Source: Corylus avellana (lineage: Eukaryota > Streptophyta > Magnoliopsida > Fagales > Betulaceae). From it: a DNA stretch of 64,000 bases. Shown in pieces: positions 7,173-21,982 of the stretch. Made by a program: the position numbers and the translations under genes. Positions within the stretch are counted from its first letter, which is position 1. Each line of letters opens with the position of its first letter. The notes beneath the pieces are model-generated. The model was given only the letters and a program-made list of their open reading frames with translations. It had not been told where the DNA came from and made no database searches. The stretch is taken from the NCBI RefSeq assembly GCF_901000735.1, contig NC_081545.1, forward strand, positions 29,727,513 through 29,791,512, read 5' to 3'.

Positions 7173-7619
7173 TCAACCGTGATGAACGGCAGAGAGGACC
7201 CCGTTAGCCCCCTCAATCAAGCGAAGCACAATCATGACCGTCGATGCCGGGACGCTCATGGTGATGAGCGCAAGCATCCCAAGAGAGAAGCTGGGCCTGG
7301 TGTTCATCAAATACGATTGCAACAAACCCACAACTTGACAAATATACTCATCATAGCACGTGTAATATCGCTTCTCCCATTCCGTCCATTCCTCCGGCGG
7401 CTCATAATTCCTCTCAATCATTTTCATCTCATGAATGCGTTTCCTCAGGATGATCATGCTTTTGTCGACCAAGCCTCCTCTATAGTCTCTTCCAGCAGCG
7501 AAAACCATGGCGCTCGATCTTTTCCCTTGCAAGAATCTCATTTTCTTACACTCTGGTTTTCCCAGCAGGGAAAATGGCAGAGGAGGATGTGCTGTGGAAA
7601 ATAGACAAGTTGCTTCCAT
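7173..7619 (-). CDS. Plant-specific small protein, family copy 3 (diverged)
   Basis: Intronless 148-residue protein, the third member of the cluster. It has a short N-terminal leader (MEATCLF...), then RDYRGGLVDKSMIILRKRIH, EPPEEWTEWEKRYYTCYDEY, VGLLQSYLMNTRPSFSLGML and a hydrophobic C-terminal segment. The frame stays open 25 codons further upstream, but a TATAAATA box at 7672-7679 lies inside that extension. The ATG at 7619 (MEATC) is therefore the credible start; it also matches the short leaders of copies 1 and 2. Divergence from copies 1 and 2 suggests an older duplication. No function is recognised; a plastid or membrane location is inference from the leader and hydrophobic tail. Confidence 0.85.
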   Translation of the reverse strand: MEATCLFSTAHPPLPFSLLGKPECKKMRFLQGKRSSAMVFAAGRDYRGGLVDKSMIILRKRIHEMKMIERNYEPPEEWTEWEKRYYTCYDEYICQVVGLLQSYLMNTRPSFSLGMLALITMSVPASTVMIVLRLIEGANGVLSAVHHG

Positions 7620-7671
7620 TGCTGAACAAAGTGGAAAGATGGATATGGGGAAGGGGTGGTCTCTATATTCA

Positions 7672-7679
7672 TATTTATA
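7672..7679 (-). promoter_or_regulatory. TATA box and nearby G-box of family copy 3
   Basis: TATAAATA on the minus strand lies about 55 bases upstream of the ATG at 7619. About 55 bases further upstream is GACACGTGTC (CACGTG at 7731-7736), a perfect G-box/ABRE-type core. A second ACACGTGT occurs at about 7999. G-boxes are bound by bHLH and bZIP factors; that this gene responds to them is inference. Confidence 0.55.
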
Positions 7680-7739
7680 GATATGAGGCCTCAAGATCTA
7701 ACGTTAGCTAAAACTTTGTTGGGTTATTGACACGTGTCC

Positions 7740-8392: not shown

Positions 8393-8867
8393 TGTAACAC
8401 CCCCTTCCCATAAGAAAACGATATCACGTGTTGTTTGAACCATAAACGCAAAGATACAAGAATTTCATAAATCGAAATTCAAAGCTGACTAAACATCTCA
8501 TTAACATCTTATGGATAGTACGCGGGAAATTGCCTGTTTCTACAGTTGGTCTCAGTCGTTCAGGCGACACGGTTGCTCAAACAAGGACGTCGTAGACGGT
8601 TCTACTGGCCAGTAAAACTAGAGTCGGAAGCCTTCACCTAGAAGAGGATTAAATAGGTTTCAATATGTTTTCTTATGTTAAGATTAAGTTTTAAGTTTTA
8701 ATGGGATGAGATGTAGCAACAGGAATATGATGGTTTAAGTTTTAATTATAATGAGATGCTTGGTTTACTTTGGTTTTCAGTTTATGAAATTCTTGTATCC
8801 TTGCATTTTTTGTTCGAACGATGCGTAATATCGTCTTCCAACGAGAAGGGGGTAAAGGGGTGTTACA
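8393..8867. mobile_element. Solo LTR (TGTAACACCC...GGGTGTTACA)
   Basis: The ends TGTAACACCCC and GGGGTGTTACA form the short inverted repeat with TG..CA termini found on many plant LTR retrotransposons. The 5-bp flanks are TAGTT on the left and TATTT on the right, four of five matching, so an eroded target duplication is likely. No primer-binding site, polypurine tract or retroviral frame adjoins, hence a solo LTR. It ends 30 bases from the stop codon of the minus-strand gene at 8898-9879 and must form its 3' flank. Confidence 0.6.
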
Positions 8868-8897
8868 TATTTAAATTGTGGAAGATTGTCAACTTCA

Positions 8898-9879
8898 TCA
8901 ATCATCATAGGAGGAATGAGGAGCCGCTGTACATCCAAGGTCAAAGGGATCTTCAGACCCACAGCAATGCCAGTATTGAAGAACTTTGCCAGAGCCAGGA
9001 GTGTCCATGGTGCCTCCTGAATATACACTCTCAAACTTCCTCTTTGTTTCTCCTGAGGGAGTAGGGGATGGAAACGGATGCAAATCAAAGCTAAATTAAA
9101 CCTCAAAAGACATACAAAAGTAAACATGTAAAATATCAAACACAAATATGTATGCTACTGACAACTATTACTGACAATGTTTCACAACAGTAGAGATTTA
9201 AATCTCAGAACTTATTATTCTTTACAGTTTGGATTGTACTGGTTTCTGTTCCCAATAAATGTGATCTATTCATGATTTTGAGAATTTACAGGAGAAAAAA
9301 TTGCACAAAAGAACAGGGAAACGGGGCCAAATAGAATTTCTACAATCAAGTTATCATTTCCTTAACGAAATTACATCACAATGAATACTTCCATACTAGT
9401 CATTTCATCAACAATTTCAAGAACTATTATAACAGTCTTTCAGCAACAAACAAATGTATGTTCAGATTCTGTTTTCGAATTCTAAAATTGTAAAAACATT
9501 CAACCACACCTGAATTTACACAATTCACAATAACATCCAAATTTCCCAAACATTTGATTTTTCAGAAATTTTTTTATACAAGAAAACGAAGAGCTAAAAG
9601 TGAAACAAATAAATTAATGAATGTCGTACCACCAAAGTGAGCAGTGTGGAAGCGGCAGGCGCGAGGGTGATTGAGGGCGGGGTCGTACTGGGTCTTGCAA
9701 TTCTTGCACGTTCTCAGGGTAACTTGGTCATTCGGTTTCGCCGAGCATCGGATTGCGCGGATCGGCGGCGACTCAACGCTCGTCTTCGCTGTTCGTATTT
9801 GCCGGAATCGAGGAACAGCCGGTGGGCTTTGATAGGAGAGTAGCAAGCGAGCCTGTGAATGAGGAAGAGCTAGAGCCAT
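8898..9879 (-). CDS. Plastid-targeted Cys/His-rich conserved protein
   Basis: Two exons: 9879-9630 (250 nt) and 9052-8898 (155 nt), giving 134 residues. The intron 9629-9053 begins GTAC and ends CTCAG, phase 1. Residues 1-46 look like a plastid transit peptide (MALALPHSQARLLLSYQSP, Ser/Arg/Pro-rich, few acidic residues). The mature part carries TCKNCKTQYDPALNHPRACR, FHTAHFGG, then YSGGTMDTPGSGK, YWHCCGSEDPFDLGC and APHSSYDD. The regular Cys and His spacing suggests a metal-binding fold. The exon join restores the conserved HFGGETKRKFESVY junction, which supports the gene model. I know this as a conserved plant protein of unknown function. A telo-box (AAACCCTA, 9894-9901) lies just upstream of the ATG. 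A duplicate of this gene became RPL22 next door. Confidence 0.88.
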
Positions 9880-9893
9880 GGGTCTCAGAGAAA

Positions 9894-9901
9894 AAACCCT
9901 A
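9894..9901. promoter_or_regulatory. Telo-box in leader of the Cys/His-rich gene
   Basis: AAACCCTA 15 bases upstream of the ATG. Telo-boxes are common in 5' regions of plant translation-related and housekeeping genes. RPL22 has one at 12940-12947 at a similar distance. Confidence 0.45.
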
Positions 9902-10479
9902 GTCCTCCCTCGCCTTTTCTTTTTTGATTTGCCTGAGAGAGAGCTTTGAGGAGCTGAAGAGTGAAGTGTGAAGAGGAACTTTAAGAAGATCCTGGTAAAT
10001 CACTAAATTCAATTTTTACGACAACTTCTAGGCCAATTTTAACTTAGATGGTTTCTGCTTGATTAATTTCAGCGGTTAAAAAAAAAAAAAAAAACTAATT
10101 TAATATGTATTATTATGAAAACTTAAAAAAATGAAAATCTTTCAAATATAATATATGCTTTGATCATAAAATTTGTATCATTTAATTCAAAATTGATCAC
10201 TAATTTAAGGACTTCAAGTTGGAATTACCGATATTCTTAGACATTTTTTTAATGATAAGGAACCCTTCAAGGCAGGGCCCTTTCGAACCCAATTTTGTCG
10301 GGTAAAATCTCAGAGACATGAGGCGTCCACAAAAATCATGTATTAAGTAATTGAAGTTCCAAGAGCCGGCCTTGTGATACTACACCAAACGAGCGATGAT
10401 TAAAGCTAATCCTCATGATTGACAAACACAATACTAGGAGTAAACAGTAAGAAATATCGGGAGCAATCCATTGATTGCT

Positions 10480-10600
10480 GAAGATTGTCAACTACACTAG
10501 TGATCAAAGGAGTGAGCAACAGTGCATCAAAGGTAAAAGGGTTTCAGACCCACAGAAATCCCAGTAATTAAGAACCCTGTCACAGTCACAGTATTCATAG
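10480..10600 (-). pseudogene. Relic of exon 2 of the duplicated Cys/His-rich gene
   Basis: Nucleotide words match exon 2 of the intact gene in the same order: GAAGATTGTCAACT, then TCAAAGGT (AAGGTCAAAGG in the intact gene), TTCAGACCCACAG, CCAGTA and AAGAAC. These correspond to 8880-9000 of the intact copy. Several indels break the frame (GGGATCTTCAGACC became GGGTTTCAGACC, for example). It lies 228-348 bases beyond the RPL22 stop codon, exactly where exon 2 of the duplicate should be, and may now be 3' UTR. Confidence 0.75.
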
Positions 10601-10827
10601 CCAATTTAAACATGAGTCACTCAAAACTCAGAAGAGTCTCATGAAAGTAGTGACAAAGGAAAAAGAAGGGTTAAATGCAATCTTCTAAAATAATTAAAAA
10701 GATATTGATAAGATTTAAAAACATAGGATTGCACTTACAATTCCTATGGAATTTACAACAGTTTGCATTTAAGTGGATATTACAAGCAGAAAACCTCAGG
10801 TTGAGATGGTTCTAAAAGTTGCATGTT

Positions 10828-12897
10828 TTACAAGCTTGAATCTTTCAACACAACAGTAATATGACAGGTGCGCCTCCTTATCGCACAAGCTCTTCCTCGA
10901 GCTTGAGGTCTAGGCTTTTTCCTCGTGGCACCCTCATTAACATAAGCTGTACTAACTATTAAGTTCGCTTGGTCCAAACCCAAATTGTTACTAGCATTTG
11001 CAGCAGCAGAATAAATTAATTTAAGAATCGGATCACATGCTCGGTAAGGCATGAGTTCTAGTATCATAAGTGATTCCTCGTACGAACGTCCCCGTATCTG
11101 ATCAATTACCCTTCGTGCTTTGTTAGCAGACATATGTATGTGTCGAGCAATTGCATATGCTTCTGCAGAACCGCCCTGCTTAGTGTTCTTTGTTGTCACC
11201 GTCCCTGCAGTGTTAAATAATCACATTAAACTATTTTGTTCATAAGTGCATCAACTTTTGTAACTAATAAGTTTCTCCATTCCATTTCCATTAGATTTAT
11301 AATACACAACAACATGAATAAAGTAACATGTCAACAAACTGAAAAATATGAATCATGACTTCAACATTCTCAGAAATGCATTCTGTATATATCAGCATAC
11401 AGCCATAAATATCTCTTGTAGTAAACAAAATCCAACGTTTTTGTTTTTGTTCCATTTCTCACTGAAAAGCTTCTAAGTAGTAAGTTCATCCTCCCATTAT
11501 TTGGAAAGATTTTTAAGCAACAACCAAAAGAAGTGTCATTACTTCAAATTTTGCAGACTTCCACCAGCATCTAAGTTACAAATGAGTTTTTGACCCCATC
11601 AATGGCTTTCTTTTATTATGATTATTGTTATTTTTAATAGACTATAACTTGCTTTTATTGCAGGTAATTTGTTTGATGTCACAGCATTAGAAAGCACAAG
11701 AGTCCAATAAGCAAGTGGATACAGATTAATGCTAAGTTGGCTCAGGAAAGTGTTGGAAGATAGCAGTCAATAAATTAAAATTTGAAGAGAACTTCACATG
11801 ATCTAAGCCCTTTAAACACTGCATTCAAATTTTGATAAGGGATTTCAATTTTTACATTTTGATAAGGGATTTCAATTTTTATGTAGTGTGCCTCGGAAAT
11901 CACCCTTTCAGTGACTTCTATAAAAAATTTTTCCTCAACACGAACCAGGACTCATTCAGGAAATCAAAGAGAAAAAAGATAATGAACACCTGTTGGCCAC
12001 ATGTATGAATTAGGGTACTTACCAATATGCAGGTTCTTCATCTAATATCTCCAATGCTAAGAACCTAGGAGCCATTTTCCTTCGTTTTATAACAACAAAG
12101 GAAAAGCATCTGCGCTATGACTCTAAAACGACTAATAAATTTGAAATTTCCCTAAAATCACTTATAGAGCCTAGTTTACATAGTTAGTAAGTAATGTGGG
12201 ACTTAACACCCATAAATATCTTTATAAACCACTCTATGCAGGATACTCATCTTGCTAAAATGGGACTGGGGTGTTACAATTAATCGTTGCCGCTTCATAT
12301 ATTTGTCCAGCCGCTAAGGACTGATGAACAATTAATTACTCAGCATTTGTATTTTATCTCTTTCTGTATCTGCTTGATAATTGATTAGAGATAGTCAGAA
12401 ATTACCCATCTTTTTGTCAATTTTGGCACATGTACATCCAGTTTGATATATACACCTTCTCTCGCATACACCCATTGGTTTACAAAATATCATATATAGC
12501 AGAATACATACAATGTAAATTATCACAACTTCATTTCCCAACTGAACACAAATGAAGCACCAAAATTCTCAGTAATCAAAACATAAACATACAAACTCAA
12601 ATAAAATCTCAAGCCTTAGCAAATTGACAAGGGCTGAGGGGGGGTACCTTCAGATTCAGCAGTCAGAGTGCCGCTAGCGGTAGCGCGAGTGAGCACAGGG
12701 CCGTATTGGGTCTTGGAATCCCAGCAAGTTTTGAGGGCTACTTGGTCACTAGGCTTCGCCGGGAAGCTAATGGCCGAGAATCCCAGCGACCTTATGCCCG
12801 TCTCCGACGTGGGAGCTCGATGCAATGGCTGAGTCATCCGTGGGGTTTGATGGTAGAACGGCAAACGAGCCAGCGGATGAGGAAGCGTGAGAGCCAT
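10828..12897 (-). CDS. RPL22: Nuclear-encoded plastid ribosomal protein L22 (uL22)
   Basis: Two exons: 12897-12648 (250 nt, leader) and 11204-10828 (377 nt), intron 12647-11205 with GTACC start and CTGCAG end, phase 1. The product has 208 residues. Residues 85-208 are plastid-type L22: [60 protein letters not shown] and VVLKD. The protein lines the exit tunnel of the 50S plastid ribosome. Exon 2 has no ATG upstream of the L22 core, so it needs exon 1. Exon 1 aligns without gaps to exon 1 of the gene at 8898-9879 (about 35 of 84 residues identical, both exactly 250 nt, same phase, same GTAC donor), but has lost most Cys/His ligands, as expected if it now serves only as a transit peptide. A telo-box (12940-12947) lies upstream. 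Confidence 0.92.
12050..12280 (-). mobile_element. LTR-like fragment in the RPL22 intron
   Basis: Read on the minus strand, the segment starts GTAACACCCCAGTCCCATTT at about 12278, a terminus typical of plant LTRs, and passes GTTAAGTCCCACATTACTT. No matching far end or second LTR was found, so the extent is approximate and the element is probably partial. Confidence 0.35.
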
Positions 12898-12939
12898 GGC
12901 CCAGCTGAGCGGAGCTGTGAGCGTGAGCTATGGCAGGGA

Positions 12940-12947
12940 TAGGGTTT
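12940..12947 (-). promoter_or_regulatory. Telo-box upstream of RPL22
   Basis: AAACCCTA on the minus strand, about 45 bases upstream of the ATG at 12897. Telo-boxes are typical of plant ribosomal-protein promoters. The neighbouring parental gene has one too, so it may have been inherited in the duplication. Confidence 0.45.
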
Positions 12948-13159
12948 GGAGGATGGGGGACCTGAAATGAAGTGTCAGATAACAGTCTACAGAAAAAAGT
13001 AACGGCTCAGTGGATAAAGGAGTGGGTTCGGGTTCTGAATTGGGCTGGTGGGTTATGGATCGGACTTTGTCAGTTAAAGTTGGGCTAGCCTTTTGATTGG
13101 AGTGACACCGTTTTGACTAAGATCCGAATTAATCCAAATGTTGTGATTATGTAATACTA

Positions 13160-14069: not shown

Positions 14070-17000
14070 ATGGCAAAGAGCAGCAACAAAGAGGAGCCCA
14101 GCACTGCTCCACAGCCAGAGAGGTGGTACAACCTAGCCCTAGGACCTTCTTTCAAGGATCACCATCCCTCTTCCAAGTTTTGCACTTTACGTTGTAAGTC
14201 CCTCCATTTTCAATCAAACCCATTTCCTGGGTTCTATATTGTTTCCGAGAAAGCTGTGTAGAAAGAAAGGGAGACAAGAAAACTTTTTGGTGTTTTATGT
14301 TTGTTTAAGTTGCTTTGGGTTCAGAGTTCTGGGAAAAATTTGACTCAAAATTAACTCAGTTGGACCGAATAATTTATTAAACCTAAAAGTTTGAAAAAAT
14401 TTAGATGTTAATTGCGATTGTGTTATGCTGAGTTTTTTTTGGTAAGAAAATTTTATAGTGAGATAAATGAGGAAGACTTTTTTTTTTTGATGAATAAAGA
14501 GGAAGACTTTGAATGTCAGATGAGCCAGGTTTATTATAAGATTAGTGCTTATTATTATTATTATTTTGAAACAGATTTAAGTTCAAATAAATAGTGGTTT
14601 TGTCATGAAACCGATTTTTTTTTTTTTTTGGATCTGTTTGGTTGAGAAGGGAAGGAGGTGAGAAAAAGAAAAAACTTCGGATTTGATAGAAACTTCAGGT
14701 AAAACTTACCTTAAAACCCGGATTACAAGGGAAGGGTTCCCTAGAGCTTATATACACATAGTTAAGATTGCATTTAAGCCTTGTGGGAGACTTAGGATCG
14801 TAACATACCATCACACTCAATAACTGACATCCTCGGCAGTCCACTCTATTGGTACTGATCCGATGGTAGCCTTTTCTCTTTTGACGGCTCTACTCAGTAT
14901 TTAATGACTTAATATTATGTCCATATATAGTGTCAAGACATTTTAAGACAATTTAATTTAACCTACAGGGCACCCTCTCCCTGACTCTGCAACCCATTTG
15001 ATCTCATAATCGACGAACTGCGTCCAATTTCATACTTGATGGGATGATTCTCTCTAATTCAAAATGATACAAACTTCAAGTAGAATTCACCATTGAAAAC
15101 CGTCTTACAAATGGAAAGTACTAAAGAGCTTATATACACTAATACACATAATTAAGATTACACTTAAGTCATGTGGGACACTTAAAATCGTAATAGGATT
15201 CTTACAATTATTGCTGATTATAGTCTTGGGGACAGAAAATCTCTACTGAACTGTGCCTAATTGCTCTGCAAAGATGTAATTTGGTTGATGTATAATATAC
15301 AAATGTATACATCTTTTATCAATTGCTTGTACTCTTTCAATAATCAGCTTCTATATATGAAAGGGTGTAAAAAGATATTGTCCTCACTTGTGTGTTTACC
15401 CAGATGAATTTAAACCAGCTTCAATTGATAAGAACCAATCCGGGTCACTCCATAAGAACAAGGACAACAGAGTTACAGTGGAATTTCACAATAACCAACA
15501 TGGGAAGCCCAAAGTGAGCTTTGAAGGTATAAGTGAGGATTACAAGGAGAATGATGCGGTCTTGTTCTTTGACGGTCAGACCTTTCGGTTGGAGCGGTTG
15601 CACAGGGCAGTGAAGCGGTTGAGGCATGTTCGGCTGCCTGGTGAGTCTGCAGCTGCAGCTACCTCAGCCCCAACTGCTTTGGTTGGAGCAGCTGCAGAAT
15701 CTTATTCACCACCACTGGATAAAGGGGCAAAAGTTCAGTCTTTGAACAAAGGCACGGTTCATCAAGTACCAGTGAGTTTTCTTTGGTTTTGCAATTCCTT
15801 ATATCTCTTTCAAGGATAAAAACATCAAAAGAGCAAATAATCATCAGGTGAACTCTTTTATCAAAAGATGCAAATAGAAAAATCATCATTTTTATTTTGC
15901 ATTGCTAGGGCTTGCATATACTAAACTTACTAGATAATGGTATTTTTGAAGTGCATATCTAAGCTCTTTCAATCTAAATAGCTTAGACCATTTAGACCAT
16001 AGCAGACACGTAAAAAATGCTGGAAAACAAACCAGTTGCTCATGAACAACTCAGTTTGGTTTTTAAGACTTCTGTTTTAGATCATCGTTCACCACATGAG
16101 TACTGTGTTACAACTTAAAAGAAAATGTCAAAAAAATCCATCTTTATTTCGTGCTCTACAATCATTATCACTGTTTAAGTGTATTGAATTAGTTTGTAAA
16201 TGTTTAAAACATGTTTGGTGGCTAATATGCATAAACAGAGGTAGGAGTAGAGGTTTTTAAAGAAAAAATTATATTAAATTAATTTGGTTAACCAGCTTAA
16301 CAAAGCTCATAACATACTCCAGCTCGTTCAGGAAACTACTGAACCGAGTTTGAACATAATAATTACGCTCGATCTTGAGCTAAAATTCAGTTTGGGCTTG
16401 ATGAAGAGTTGACGAACCAAGTTTGAACACATCAATGCGACATCTGGTTCATTTGTGATGAGGGAAGGAAGGTTGAAAAAGTTAGATGCAGTTGCTTGGC
16501 ATTGTAATCCTTCTGTTTTTGTGAGTTCCTCTTCAATTCTATTAATGAGCTAAATTTCTTCTTTTATGTCATGTACAGGCTGAGTTTGAACGAATTGATG
16601 TTGGCAACTCAGAGTGCTTAGGTATTTCTTTATTTCTTTTATTTTCCCTCCTTATTTTCATATTTTGCCTGGATAAAATTTCAAGTGCTGTAGGCTAGAA
16701 AATGATCTATTTCTTTTGCATGCATAAAATTAAGGTTTAAGATTTTTGTAGATTGGTTTAGGGGAATTGGGAATTGCTGGAAAGTGCTTTTAAATGGAAA
16801 GGGGGTTTGGAGCTCTATTGTGAAAGCTCAATTTTGTTCAAGATGGCAAAACAATTAAGTTGAAAATTTTGAAACTTCAGTCAACTCTGGCCTTACTTTA
16901 TGCCAAGTGTTTTTGCATGCAAATGAGAGTTTGAAATAGAAAAAATCAATCATTGTATTTGTATGTCATTTGAAACTCACATTGAATATGAAATTTAAAA

Positions 17001-17974
17001 CATTTTGCAAGCAGAATTTTGATTGCTTAAGATCCCAGTGACAACATTTTTTTTTTTTTTTTTTTTAATTCTTGTTTATTCTTGCACAGACACACAAGGC
17101 AGCCATCCATCCACACACATACACATTCTCTACCATTTTTTGTCTTCATGCCCAAAGGTGCAGAACCTAACACTTATTATCTCTTCCTGCCTTTATATTT
17201 CAAATCAAACTTTTTTGTTGTTGTAAATAATGGATGTATGAAAATAAATCAATTTATCTACAAATCAGTTTGCAACTGAAAATGCAACCCTTTGCTAACG
17301 TGAATCTTTAGCACTGAGTAATTTTATTGCATCAAATGGCTTCTTTTTTCTGCATTAATTACCCTTTTTGACTGTTTTCTGTCTTCTTAAGTAAACATGG
17401 ATATGTTTTCTCATTTATGTTAAAATGACCAACTTATTATCCTCCTGACCCAGGTGCGAAAGCTAAAAATGTGAAGGATGTGGATTATCCACCTTCACAT
17501 CCAAATCCATCAACTTCGTCACCAGACTCCAAGGATTGTGAACTGGAGGAACATTTAGATATAATAAATGGTGACTCCGAGGATTGTGAACTGGAGGAAC
17601 ATTTAGATATAATAAATGATGATGATGATGATGATGATGATGGCTGTGGAACAGCTGAGAAAGAAAATATTACTAAACGGGAATTCAACACGGGTTTTGA
17701 TATTAACTTACCGCATCCAGCTGACATGGATGATGAGATTGCTGAAGTAGATGTCAATGATGATGAAACAGATAAGGGCCCTAATGCTGCAGAAGCCCTT
17801 AGAGCTCAGGTGAATGCTGAGGCGAGAGAGGAGCAGACTTCGAGTGCCAGCAGTAGCAGTGGGAGTGACAGTAGCGGGACTGAAAGTGGGAGCAAGAGCG
17901 GGAGCGGAAGCAGAAGCAGTAGTAGCAGCAGTGATAGTGAAAGCAGTGATGGTGACTCTGTCAACTCAATCTAG
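14070..17974 (+). CDS. EAF: ELL-associated factor (EAF) family protein, complete model
   Basis: Four exons: 14070-14193, 15404-15771, 16579-16621 and 17454-17974, all GT-AG and in phase, giving 351 residues. Residues 13-130 form the EAF domain: RWYNLALGPSFKDHH, CTLRYEFKPASIDK, DNRVTVEFHNNQHGK, VSFEGISEDYKENDAVLFFD, GQTFRLERLHRAVKRLRHVR. EAF proteins pair with ELL to stimulate RNA polymerase II elongation in the nucleus. The C-terminal 170 residues are acidic and then Ser-rich (GSDSSGTESGSKSGSGSRS), as in other EAFs and likely an activation region. The last exon holds a tandem DCELEEHLDIIN duplication and a run of eight Asp. This model uses the exons before the assembly gap; a second set of exons 2-4 follows the gap. 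Confidence 0.92.
14685..15200. repeat. Diverged direct repeats in EAF intron 1 (LTR/TRIM-like remnant)
   Basis: About 14692-14802 and 15070-15200 share the order ACTTCA, ACC..TTACAA, AGAGCTTATATACAC, ACATA.TTAAGATT, TTAAG.C.TGTGGGA.ACTTA and ATCGTAA. Both are in direct orientation, separated by about 260 bases. This would fit two ageing short LTRs. No primer-binding site was recognised, so the class is uncertain. Confidence 0.45.
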
Positions 17975-18302
17975 TATGAACCAAGTGGATCACCTTGGAA
18001 CTAATTTCTGTAACCTTGGTTGACATAATGTGGTTTTTGCATGGTCAAGAGCTTATTGAATTGAACATTGAGGCAAAAGAGTGGGAATGCGTCTCCTGGA
18101 TCTAAACTTGACAGAGCTTTTATAAATGACTGTATGCTGAACACATTCTCTGGTTCTGGGTTGGCCATGTGAAGGTGACACCAGCTCTGGGAGTCGAAGT
18201 CTAGGAGCATTTCCAATTTCTACAAAAACGGAGCTTAAGTTTCTTGTTCTCTTTCCATTTCAGAGAAAAAGCAACATTGCAAACCAAGCTTGGCTCTAAG
18301 GA
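14716..18302. repeat. Left copy of 3.6-kb direct duplication next to the gap
   Basis: Nearly identical to 18403-21982, from ACCCGGATTACAAG in EAF intron 1 through exons 2-4 into the 3' UTR at GGCTCTAAGGA. This copy ends exactly at the first N. The first kilobase shows about ten single-base differences, roughly one percent, plus small indels elsewhere. Confidence 0.95.
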
Positions 18303-18402: not shown

Positions 18403-21400
18403 ACCCGGATTACAAGAGAAGGGTTCCCCAGAGCTTATATACACATAGTTAAGATTGCATTTAAGCCTTGTGGGAGACTTAGGATCGTAACATACCATCA
18501 CGCTCAATAACTGACATCCTCGGCAGTCCACTCTATTGGTACTGATCCGATGGTAGCCTTTTCTCTTTTGACGGCTCCACTCAGTATTTAATGACTTAAT
18601 ATTATGTCCATATATAGTGTCAAGACATTTTAAGACAATTTAATTTAACCTACAGGGCACCCTCTCCCTGACTTTGCAACCCATTTGATCTCATAATCGA
18701 CGAACTGTGTCCAATTTCATACTTGATGGGATGATTCTCTCTAATTCAAAATGATACAAACTTCAGGTAGAATTCACCATTGAAAACCGTCTTACAAATG
18801 GAAAGTACTAAAGAGCTTATATACACTAATACACATAATTAAGATTACACTTAAGTCATGTGGGACACTTAAAATCGTAATAGGATTCTTACAATTATTG
18901 CTGATTATAGTCTTGGGGACAGAAAATCTCTACTGAACTGTGCCTAATTGCTCTGCAAAGATGTAATTTGGTTGATGTATAATATACAAATGTATACATC
19001 TTTTATCAATTGCTTGTACTCTTTCAATAATCAGCTTCTATATATGAAAGGGTGTAAAAAGATAATGTCCTCACTTGTGTGTTTACCCAGATGAATTTAA
19101 ACCAGCTTCAATTGATAAGAACCAATCCGGGTCACTCCATAAGAACAAGGACAACAGAGTTACAGTGGAATTTCACAATAACCAACATGGGAAGCCCAAA
19201 GTGAGCTTTGAAGGTATAAGTGAGGATTACAAGGAGAATGATGCGGTCTTGTTCTTTGATGGTCAGACCTTTCGGTTGGAGCGGTTGCACAGGGCAGTGA
19301 AGCGGTTGAGGCATGTTCGGCTGCCTGGTGAGTCTGCAGCTGCAGCTACCTCAGCCCCAACTGCTTTGGTTGGATCAGCTGCAGAATCTTATTCACCACC
19401 ACTGGATAAAGGGGCAAAAGTTCAGTCTTTGAACAAAGGCATGGTTCATCAAGTACCAGTGAGTTTTCTTTGGTTTTGCAATTCCTTATATCTCTTTCAA
19501 GGATAAAAACATCAAAAGAGCAAATAATCATCAGGTGAACTCTTTTATCAAAAGATGCAAATAGAAAAATCATCATTTTTATTTTGCATTGCTAGGGCTT
19601 GCATATACTAAACTTACTAGATAATGGTATTTTTGAAGTGCATATCTAAGCTCTTTCAATCTAAATAGCTTGGACCATTTAGACCATAGCAGACACGTAA
19701 AAAATGCTGGAAAACAAACCAGTTGCTCATGAACAACTCAGTTTGGTTTTTAAGACATCTGTTTTAGATCATCGTTCACCACATGAGTACTGTGTTACAA
19801 CTTAAAAGAAAATGTCAAAAAAATCCATCTTTATTTTGTGCTCTACAATCGTTATCACTGTTTAAGTGTATTGAATTAGTTTGTAAATGTTTAAAACATG
19901 TTTGGTGGCTAATATGCATAAACGGAGGTAGGAGTAGAGGTTTTTAAAGAAAAAATTATATTAAATTAATTTGGTTAACCAGCTTAATAAAGCTCATAAC
20001 ATACTCCAGCTCGTTCAGGAAACTACTGAACCAAGTTTGAACATAATAATTACGCTCGATCTTGAGCTAAAATTCAGTTTGGGCTTGATGAAAAAGTTGA
20101 CGAACCAAGTTTGAACACATCAATGCGACATCTGGTTCATTTGTGATGAGGGAAGGAAGGTTGAAAAAAGTTAGATGCAGTTGCTTGGCATTGTAATCCT
20201 TCTGTTTTTGTGAGTTCCTCTTCAATTCTATTAATGAGCTAAATTTCTTCTTTTATGTCATGTACAGGCTGAGTTTGAACGAATTGATGTTGGCAACTCA
20301 GAGTGCTTAGGTATTTCTTTATTTCTTTTATTTTCCCTCCTTATTTTCATAATTTGCTTGGATAAAATTTCAAGTGCTGTAGGCTAGAAAATGATCTATT
20401 TCTTTTGCATAAAATTAAGGTTTAAGATTTTTGTAGATTGGTTTAGGGGAATTGGGAATTGCTGGAAAGTGCTTTTAGATGGAAAGGGGGTTTGGAGCTC
20501 TATTGTGAAAGCTCAATTTTGTTCAAGATGGCAAAACAATTAAGTTGAAAATTTTGAAACTTCAGTCAACTCTGGCCTTACTTTATGCCAAGTGTTTTTG
20601 CATGCAAATGAGAGTTTGAAATAGAAAAAATCAATCATTGTATTTGTATGTCATTTGAAACTCACATTGAATATGAAATTTAAAACATTTTGCAAGCAGA
20701 ATTTTGATTGCTTAAGATCCCAGTGACAACATTTTTTTTTTTTTTTTTTAATTCTTGTTTATTCTTGCACAGACACACAAGGCAACCATCCATCCACACA
20801 CATACACATTCTCTACCATTTTTTGTCTTCATGCCCAAAGGTGCAGAACCTAACACTTATTATCTCTTCCTGCCTTTATATTTCAAATCAAACTTTTTTG
20901 TTGTTGTAAATAATGGATGTATGAAAATAAATCAATTTATCTACAAATCAGTTTGCAACTGAAAATGCAACCCTTTGCTAACGTGAATCTTTAGCACTGA
21001 GTAATTTTATTGCATCAAATGGCTTCTTTTTTCTGCATTAATTACCCTTTTTGACTGTTTTCTGTCTTCTTAAGTAAACATGGATATGTTTTCTCATTTA
21101 TGTTAAAATGACCAACTTATTATCCTCCTGACCCAGGTGCGAAAGCTAAAAATGTGAAGGATGTGGATTATCCACCTTCACATCCAAATCCATCAACTTC
21201 GTCACCAGACTCCAAGGATTGTGAACTGGAGGAACATTTAGATATAATAAATGGTGACTCCGAGGATTGTGAACTGGAGGAACATTTAGATATAATAAAT
21301 GATGATGATGATGATGATGATGGCTGTGGAACAGCTGAGAAAGAAAATATTACTAAACGGGAATTCAACACGGGTTTTGATATTAACTTACCACATCCAG

Positions 21401-21982
21401 CTGACATGGATGATGAGATTGCTGAAGTAGATGTCAATGATGATGAAACAGATAAGGGCCCTAATGCTGCAGAAGCCCTTAGAGCTCAGGTGAATGCTGA
21501 GGCGAGAGAGGAGCAGACTTCGAGTGCCAGCAGTAGCAGTGGGAGTGACAGTAGCGGGACTGAAAGTGGGAGCAAGAGCGGGAGCGGAAGCAGAAGCAGT
21601 AGTAGCAGCAGTGATAGTGAAAGCAGTGATGGTGACTCTGTCAACTCAATCTAGTATGAACCAAGTGGATCACCTTGGAACTAATTTCTGTAACCTTGGT
21701 TGACATAATGTGGTTTTTGCATGGTCAAGAGCTTATTGAATTGAACATTGAGGCAAAAGAGTGGGAATGCGTCTCCTGGATCTAAACTTGACAGAGCTTT
21801 TATAAATGACTGTATGCTGAACACATTCTCTGGTTCTGGGTTGGCCATGTGAAGGTGACACCAGCTCTGGGAGTCGAAGTCTAGGAGCATTTCCAATTTC
21901 TACAAAAACGGAGCTTAAGTTTCTTGTTCTCTTTCCATTTCAGAGAAAAAGCAACATTGCAAACCAAGCTTGGCTCTAAGGA
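18403..21982. repeat. Right copy of 3.6-kb direct duplication next to the gap
   Basis: Starts at the first base after the N run and matches 14716 onward; ends at GGCTCTAAGGA (21982), where the left copy meets the gap. Sequence after 21982 continues into unique 3' flank, so this copy joins the true downstream sequence. Confidence 0.95.
19091..21654 (+). pseudogene. Second set of EAF exons 2-4, no exon 1 (probable assembly duplicate)
   Basis: Exons 19091-19458, 20268-20310 and 21137-21654 have intact splice sites and an open frame; exon 1 and the promoter are absent. The protein differs from the left copy by Ala to Ser in VGxAAESYS, Thr to Met in NKGxVHQVP, and seven instead of eight Asp in the Asp run. 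There is no frameshift or nonsense change. I label it a pseudogene only because it lacks a start. The better reading is the other haplotype of one EAF locus, left unmerged at a scaffold join. If it is a real tandem copy, it would be 5'-truncated. Confidence 0.8.

Follow-up and report, generated by a model that had tools for sequence, protein, structure and literature searches.

In grasses, the mitochondrial ribosomal gene rps14 is housed in an intron of sdhB, with one leader that is alternatively spliced. The locus described here, a nuclear RPL22 gene in a stretch of 64,000 nucleotides (nt) of the hazel (Corylus avellana) genome (contig NC_081545.1, positions 29,727,513 to 29,791,512; this whole stretch is referred to below as the window), resembles that system in the residence of an organelle ribosomal gene in an intron, and differs from it in that the grass gene is mitochondrial. 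A plastid counterpart is rpl32 in the SODcp (superoxide dismutase) gene of Malpighiales, which is chimeric and alternatively spliced in the mangrove Bruguiera (PMC8941745) and duplicated and divided in Populus, Salix and Hypericum (PMC8941745, citing Cusack and Wolfe 2007). Common to rpl32/SODcp and the present system are the placement of a plastid ribosomal gene inside a nuclear gene for a plastid protein, a borrowed transit-peptide exon and subsequent duplication with division of labour. The present system differs in that another plastid gene and another host gene are involved, that the division apparently occurred separately in two orders and that the plastid copy is still annotated in some families. 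In hazel, the leader is homologous to exon 1 of another gene, with the same length and phase, and a downstream host exon remains, both being features of the rpl32/SOD type.

Nuclear rpl22 has been described as having acquired a novel transit peptide (PMC8429499), and the diversity of such peptides has been taken to indicate two independent transfers, in Fabaceae and in Fagaceae (PMC4918201). The nuclear rpl22 genes of Fabaceae (Gantt 1991) and Fagaceae (Jansen 2011), as cited, consist like the present one of a transit-peptide part and an L22 part; unlike the novel, diverse peptides and independent transfers reported there, both leaders trace here to one donor exon. Based on the findings of this analysis, we conclude that rpl22 probably entered the intron of a nuclear gene for a Cys/His-rich protein once, before the split of Fabales and Fagales, and that both orders later saw one or more duplications of the resulting locus, with division of its parts between the copies. 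The mechanism is one already described for rpl32 and superoxide dismutase, while the history proposed for rpl22 would revise the published one. No prior report of this leader donor was found in the literature searched, which lacked most subscription papers. The 2011 study by Jansen reportedly found no leader donor by BLAST.

Structure of the hazel RPL22 locus

The minus strand of the window carries, in this order, the leader exon, the L22 exon, a relict of an exon 2 and the intact Cys/His-rich gene, which is referred to as the donor:

12648..12897, minus strand: RPL22 leader exon (coding part, ATG to the phase-1 donor GTACCC), 250 nt, a donor-derived, putative transit peptide
11205..12647, minus strand: RPL22 intron, GT...AG, 1443 nt; a 985-bp JGI contig (P0001) encodes the joined exons without it
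10828..11204, minus strand: L22 exon with stop codon, 377 nt, of plastid rpl22 origin according to its PF00237 match and the L22 tree
10474..10628, minus strand: relict of the duplicated donor gene's exon 2 and proximal 3' flank, frame broken, recognised by alignment to exon 2 and by repeats D3 and D4
9630..9879, minus strand: donor gene exon 1 (LOC132180476, with intact CxxC...C..H), 250 nt, matching the leader exon in length and donor site
9053..9629, minus strand: donor gene intron, 577 nt, without an rpl22 relict found by tblastn
8898..9052, minus strand: donor gene exon 2, stop codon included, the sequence that the relict at 10474-10628 copies

The original prediction had described this three-part anatomy, and its coordinates hold for the leader (12897-12648), the L22 exon (11204-10828) and the neighbour gene (9879-8898, with exons at 9879-9630 and 9052-8898); the broken exon 2 that it proposed is real and is longer than it had stated (10628-10474). 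With a slash marking the exon boundary, the leader ends in G/GTACCC, exon 1 of the neighbour ends in G/GTACGA and the acceptor before the L22 exon reads CTGCAG/GG. Joining of the exons yields uninterrupted proteins of 208 amino acids (aa) for RPL22 and 134 aa for the neighbour, the latter being 100% identical to LOC132180476 of C. avellana. The leader and the neighbour's exon 1, both of 250 nt with a phase-1 GTAC donor, align without gaps, with 162 of 250 nt and 35 of 84 residues identical. The earlier claims that the leader is a copy of this exon and that its Cys/His residues have been lost are supported. The comparison of the two hazel copies that had been proposed was feasible for exon 1; the introns and 5' flanks are too diverged to align beyond short scraps.

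The relict agrees with exon 2 and its 3' flank at 118 of the 146 bases aligned, its reading frame being disrupted by gaps, and it is not a chance match, since its alignment score of 132 compares with a best of 65.5 among 304 other same-strand windows. Because the relict matches exon 2 plus its 3' flank, the duplicated unit must have spanned exon 1 to the near 3' flank, with the L22 exon occupying the duplicate's former intron position and the old exon 2 having decayed, as had been predicted. With assumed rates of between 6.5e-9 and 2e-9 changes per site per year, and with all divergence assigned to the relict, its Kimura two-parameter distance of 0.22 translates into an age of approximately 34 to 111 million years, which is a rough bracket only.

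The hazel L22 domain matches positions 1-104 of 104 of PF00237 (E 3.3e-33), and its best-scoring named relatives among the matches listed are plant nuclear and plastid L22 proteins, which together with the L22 tree described below points to a plastid and not a bacterial or cytosolic origin. Approximate query sequences for rps19 and rps3 gave no match beside L22; one weak match of 24 residues (E 2.7) fell inside the donor's exon 1.

Origin of the leader exon

Leaders were scored under a profile hidden Markov model (HMM) of donor exon 1 built from 100 of the 120 donors listed (361 donors in all), from which 15 named Fabales and five named Fagales had been removed, a few rows being without a species name. 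P0262, which is partial, and rows without a leader were excluded from the leader tests. Nineteen of the 27 nuclear RPL22 leaders scored above the best of 5800 shuffles (10.3 bits), including those of Corylus (22.9 bits), Carya (12.8), Prosopis (35.8), Abrus (38.3), Quillaja (21.5) and Bauhinia (91.5), while the nuclear RPL22 leaders of the maple family, which served as two controls, reached 4.7 and 5.8 bits.

Profile-profile comparison, in which the Quillaja and Bauhinia leaders lay outside all groups, linked leaders to donor exon 1 with a probability of 97.2% for Fagales (4 leaders), 97.7% for papilionoids (18) and 98.2% for caesalpinioids (3), as against 2.4% for the Acer/Dipteronia control (2 leaders) and at most 3.8% for column-shuffled profiles (20 shuffles for each of three groups). 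The papilionoid match falls mainly at the end of exon 1, several of these leaders ending in ACRFHTAQYGG or a similar sequence at the junction where the donor has ACRFHTAHFGG; eight papilionoid leaders chosen for lacking an intact CRFH block gave 94.8%. The leader of Castanea, the sole one from Fagaceae, scores 5.1 bits alone and is linked through the Fagales profile and through a Fagales leader group with support of 100/99.

The leaders of Fabaceae and Fagaceae are not unrelated, as both match one donor exon-1 profile. Judged by sequence comparison, the leader is a copy of the neighbour gene's exon 1, and the donor exon is common to Fabales and Fagales, which casts doubt on the independence of the rosid transfers that the original prediction had taken as established, at least where these two orders are concerned. 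Since the Medicago and Arachis leaders score no better than the controls, yet the papilionoid group links to the donor, the mere fact that transit peptides have diverged says little in favour of independent transfers.

Phylogeny of the L22 domain

The L22 tree comprised 55 rows, 26 of them plastid (129 plastid-type rows were counted after filters in the residue comparison), with no plastid L22 of Fagales among the rows used. The 26 plastid sequences and two nuclear ones of the maple family were set apart at 98/87, all nuclear rows of Fagales and Fabales lying outside, and a tree in which the nuclear L22 of Fabales and Fagales were held together was 2.69 likelihood units better than that of the free search (p 0.59 in the approximately unbiased test, p-AU). 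We take the L22 tree to argue weakly for one origin, two origins not being rejected (p 0.06-0.10); the case for a single transfer is carried mainly by the finding that one and the same gene, exon and splice donor are used by Fabales and Fagales alike. In Fagales and Quillaja, as judged by eye, the L22 part starts at, or one codon before, the old start codon, junctions outside hazel being inferred from protein sequence.

Shared L22 residues were rejected as proof of one origin, given that the maple control shares about as many. This control pair, P0061 (Dipteronia) and P0116 (Acer), stems from nuclear genome assemblies, carries a leader unrelated to the donor and sits in the tree with Bouea, Delavaya and Xanthoceras, which like maple belong to Sapindales, and with Vatica (85/94). 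On these grounds the maple-family RPL22 apparently represents a separate rpl22 transfer. Such a transfer is only suggested as possible in PMC7365138.

The L22 sequences of Quillaja and P0016 have long branches and are loosely placed in the tree. The Quillaja protein (P0039) seems to retain the plastid start MINERRNAYT, with a partly doubled N-terminus before the L22 core, while P0016 (ENA, 2316-bp contig) is nuclear-like, branches near Quillaja without firm support and is possibly another nuclear RPL22 lineage.

Order of insertion and duplication

The original prediction had placed the duplication before the arrival of rpl22, an order that is probably wrong. In Bauhinia variegata, the predicted protein P0009 (287 aa) consists of an intact donor exon 1, approximately 36 residues that look like intron sequence which the gene predictor read through, the L22 part and a donor exon 2 that is likewise intact; only L22 was matched by Pfam. 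Among the 120 donors listed out of 361, a set that depends on annotation, none is named as an ordinary donor protein of Bauhinia.

The exon-1 tree contained 46 rows (32 of the 120 listed donors and 14 of the 27 leaders, with Castanea, Acacia and Arachis as the only weakly scoring leaders) and 86 columns, which is few for this number of rows. The leaders and donors of Fabales formed one group (97/94), and the Quillaja leader paired with Quillaja's own donor (91/69); the three Fagales leaders (Corylus, Carya and Castanea) formed one group (100/99) and four of the five Fagales donors another (95/90), with Fagus outside. A single clade of all leaders was rejected both with Bauhinia (p-AU 0.0008) and without it (0.005).

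Since the donor exon is common to legumes and Quillaja, since the L22 of Bauhinia lies between intact exons in the gene model and since the clade expected of a single duplication is rejected, insertion first and duplication later is favoured. The data thus contradict a single duplication as the source of all leaders and agree with an insertion after which each order underwent one or more duplications. The main way in which the exon-1 tree could mislead is gene conversion between the copies.

Plastid rpl22 and expression of the nuclear gene

The loss of rpl22 from the plastid genome that the original prediction anticipated was not borne out. The plastid gene is annotated in plastomes of Betulaceae (PMC9789603), those of Corylus included (PMC6046460, PMC6865063), and is reported as unbroken and not pseudogenised in Betulaceae and Juglandaceae; PMC7697516 is also cited on the plastid rpl22 of Fagaceae. 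In Betulaceae, a family with a stem age of about 89 million years, the five plastid coding genes that vary most include rpl22 (PMC9789603), and a ratio of nonsynonymous to synonymous substitution rates (Ka/Ks) above 1 is given for rpl22 in C. americana (PMC6046460). Relaxed constraint on the plastid copy is plausible. Because Corylus, Carya and Castanea fall in one leader group, the nuclear gene should predate their split, and in that case nuclear and plastid rpl22 should have coexisted since then in the hazel and walnut lineages, suggesting long coexistence in Betulaceae and Juglandaceae.

Evidence on expression comes from P0001 (188 aa), which is 96% identical over 90% of the query and spans the exon junction. 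With 985 bp, the JGI contig that encodes it falls short of the hazel intron of 1443 nt, so that P0001 most likely stems from the spliced transcript of a near relative, with a retrocopy as the alternative. Intact L22 frames were also found in Carya and Castanea.

Alternative explanations

A number of observations weigh against a single early insertion followed by duplication, and are considered here together with the alternatives that they would favour. Eight of the 27 leaders were not recognised singly against the best shuffle of 10.3 bits (Castanea 5.1, Acacia 8.9, Arachis 4.1, Stylosanthes 3.9, Lupinus 2.0, P0258 4.7, Medicago 4.0 and Vicia 8.2 bits). In the free L22 tree, the group of 25 nuclear rows has a support of only 43/88, with Quillaja, a long branch, falling outside it, and neither the placement of Fagales nuclear L22 with plastid Rosales (a cost of 21.2 likelihood units, p-AU 0.098) nor that of Fabales nuclear L22 (24.9 units, p-AU 0.064) is rejected. 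The tree is in this respect compatible with two or more independent transfers of rpl22 that reached, in Fabales and in Fagales, one and the same intron of one gene, as is the start of the L22 part, which by eye lies approximately 4-5 codons further in in legumes than in Fagales, and two transfers is also the view expressed in PMC4918201. Of the jointly changed L22 columns, 12 of 25 are shared by Fagales and Fabales, 10 of 17 by Fagales and maple, and 9 of 19 by Fabales and maple, which shows that convergence in the nucleus is common. No chimera from Rosales or Cucurbitales was present among the named rows of the 120 matches listed. Independent transfers are nonetheless rather improbable, as they would require the same gene, exon and splice donor to have been hit twice among very many plastid-protein genes, and the maple-family RPL22, which probably goes back to a transfer of its own, carries a leader unrelated to the donor and falls among plastid sequences in the tree.

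The alternative order, in which duplication came first, rpl22 entered the intron of the spare copy and the spare exon 2 decayed, would need a duplication predating the Fabales-Fagales split to cover all leaders. The hazel window taken alone remains compatible with it, as no rpl22 relict was detected by tblastn in the neighbour's intron, and the leaders and donors of Fagales form separate groups in the exon-1 tree, although grouping the two is not rejected (p 0.13). Neither is a single clade of Fabales leaders without Bauhinia (p 0.14), and more than one division within Fabales is for that reason not established. The constraint groups of the exon-1 topology tests were named after the tree had been seen, the Bauhinia protein is a prediction from a gene model only, and gene conversion between copies could blur the tree evidence that contradicts this order. 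We consider it unlikely in view of the rejection of a single duplication behind all leaders, the pairing of the Quillaja leader with its own donor and the location of the Bauhinia L22 between intact exons. Less credible still is the notion that the hazel locus is a dead or unused nuclear insertion while the plastid gene does the work: the annotation of plastid rpl22 in Corylus and its reported integrity in Betulaceae would agree with this, but the hazel frame of 208 aa is intact with GT-AG splice sites, the L22 frames of Carya and Castanea are likewise intact, a near-identical joined sequence exists in P0001, and the plastid gene is among the five most variable in Betulaceae.

Proposed history and its implications

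A single insertion followed by duplication, which we continue to prefer, would have begun when, in a common ancestor of Fabales and Fagales, a copy of plastid rpl22 landed a single time in the only intron of the Cys/His-rich gene, with an acceptor near the start codon of rpl22 itself. Exon 1 would then have been spliced alternatively to either downstream part, so that two plastid proteins came from one locus, a two-product state that may survive undivided in Bauhinia. Duplication of the locus would have followed separately in Fagales and in Fabales, in the latter perhaps more than once; in hazel, one tandem copy would have retained L22 and lost exon 2, the other retaining exon 2 without L22. 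The hazel gene is presumably transcribed from upstream of 12897, and removal of the intron at 12647-11205 would yield a 208-aa protein with the N-terminal part of the Cys/His-rich protein as its transit peptide, predicted to enter the plastid and join the large ribosomal subunit.

A fuller version of this history has, in our judgement, a somewhat better than even chance of being correct: that one transfer before the split founded the RPL22 of both orders, that an undivided gene persists in Bauhinia, that at least two splits, and perhaps at least three, have taken place, and that, through the greater part of the history of Fagales, birches, hazels and walnuts have had a functional rpl22 in the nucleus as well as in the plastid. 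If the preferred reading is correct, the donor of the leader is identified and two transfers become one older event, while the lag between transfer and plastid loss would be very long and measurable family by family. It would also add a further 'marriage' of a plastid gene that later came apart, while in one lineage the union may persist and would be accessible to direct experiment.

Donor protein and other features of the window

The donor is presumably itself targeted to the plastid. No Pfam family was matched by the window's donor gene, and among the donors P0195, P0124, P0207 and P0122 only BTK was matched, in P0122 and below its cut-off. A search for a solved relative gave three matches only, at E 1.6 or worse, and the predicted structure had a mean pLDDT (predicted local distance difference test score) of 49, a quality insufficient for fold comparison.

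In the 3' flank of the donor gene, approximately 30 nt past its stop codon, lies a fold-back element (8393-8867) with arms of 105 nt that are 78% complementary, bounded by TGTAACACCCC and its reverse complement; a further copy of this end motif, TGTAACACCCC, is located at 12268 inside the RPL22 intron. An open frame at 7173-7697 on the minus strand (174 codons, stop to stop) adjoins the donor gene; by eye its start region looks like that of a plastid-targeted protein, and it had no Pfam match at E 0.1.

No Rfam families or tRNA genes were found in the window. A direct duplication of approximately 3.6 kb (14716-18302 and 18403-21982), 99.0% identical over 3589 bases, is either a very recent tandem copy or an assembly feature. 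The segment 58270-58770 matches its own reverse complement at 80% over 531 aligned columns and constitutes a large imperfect palindrome.

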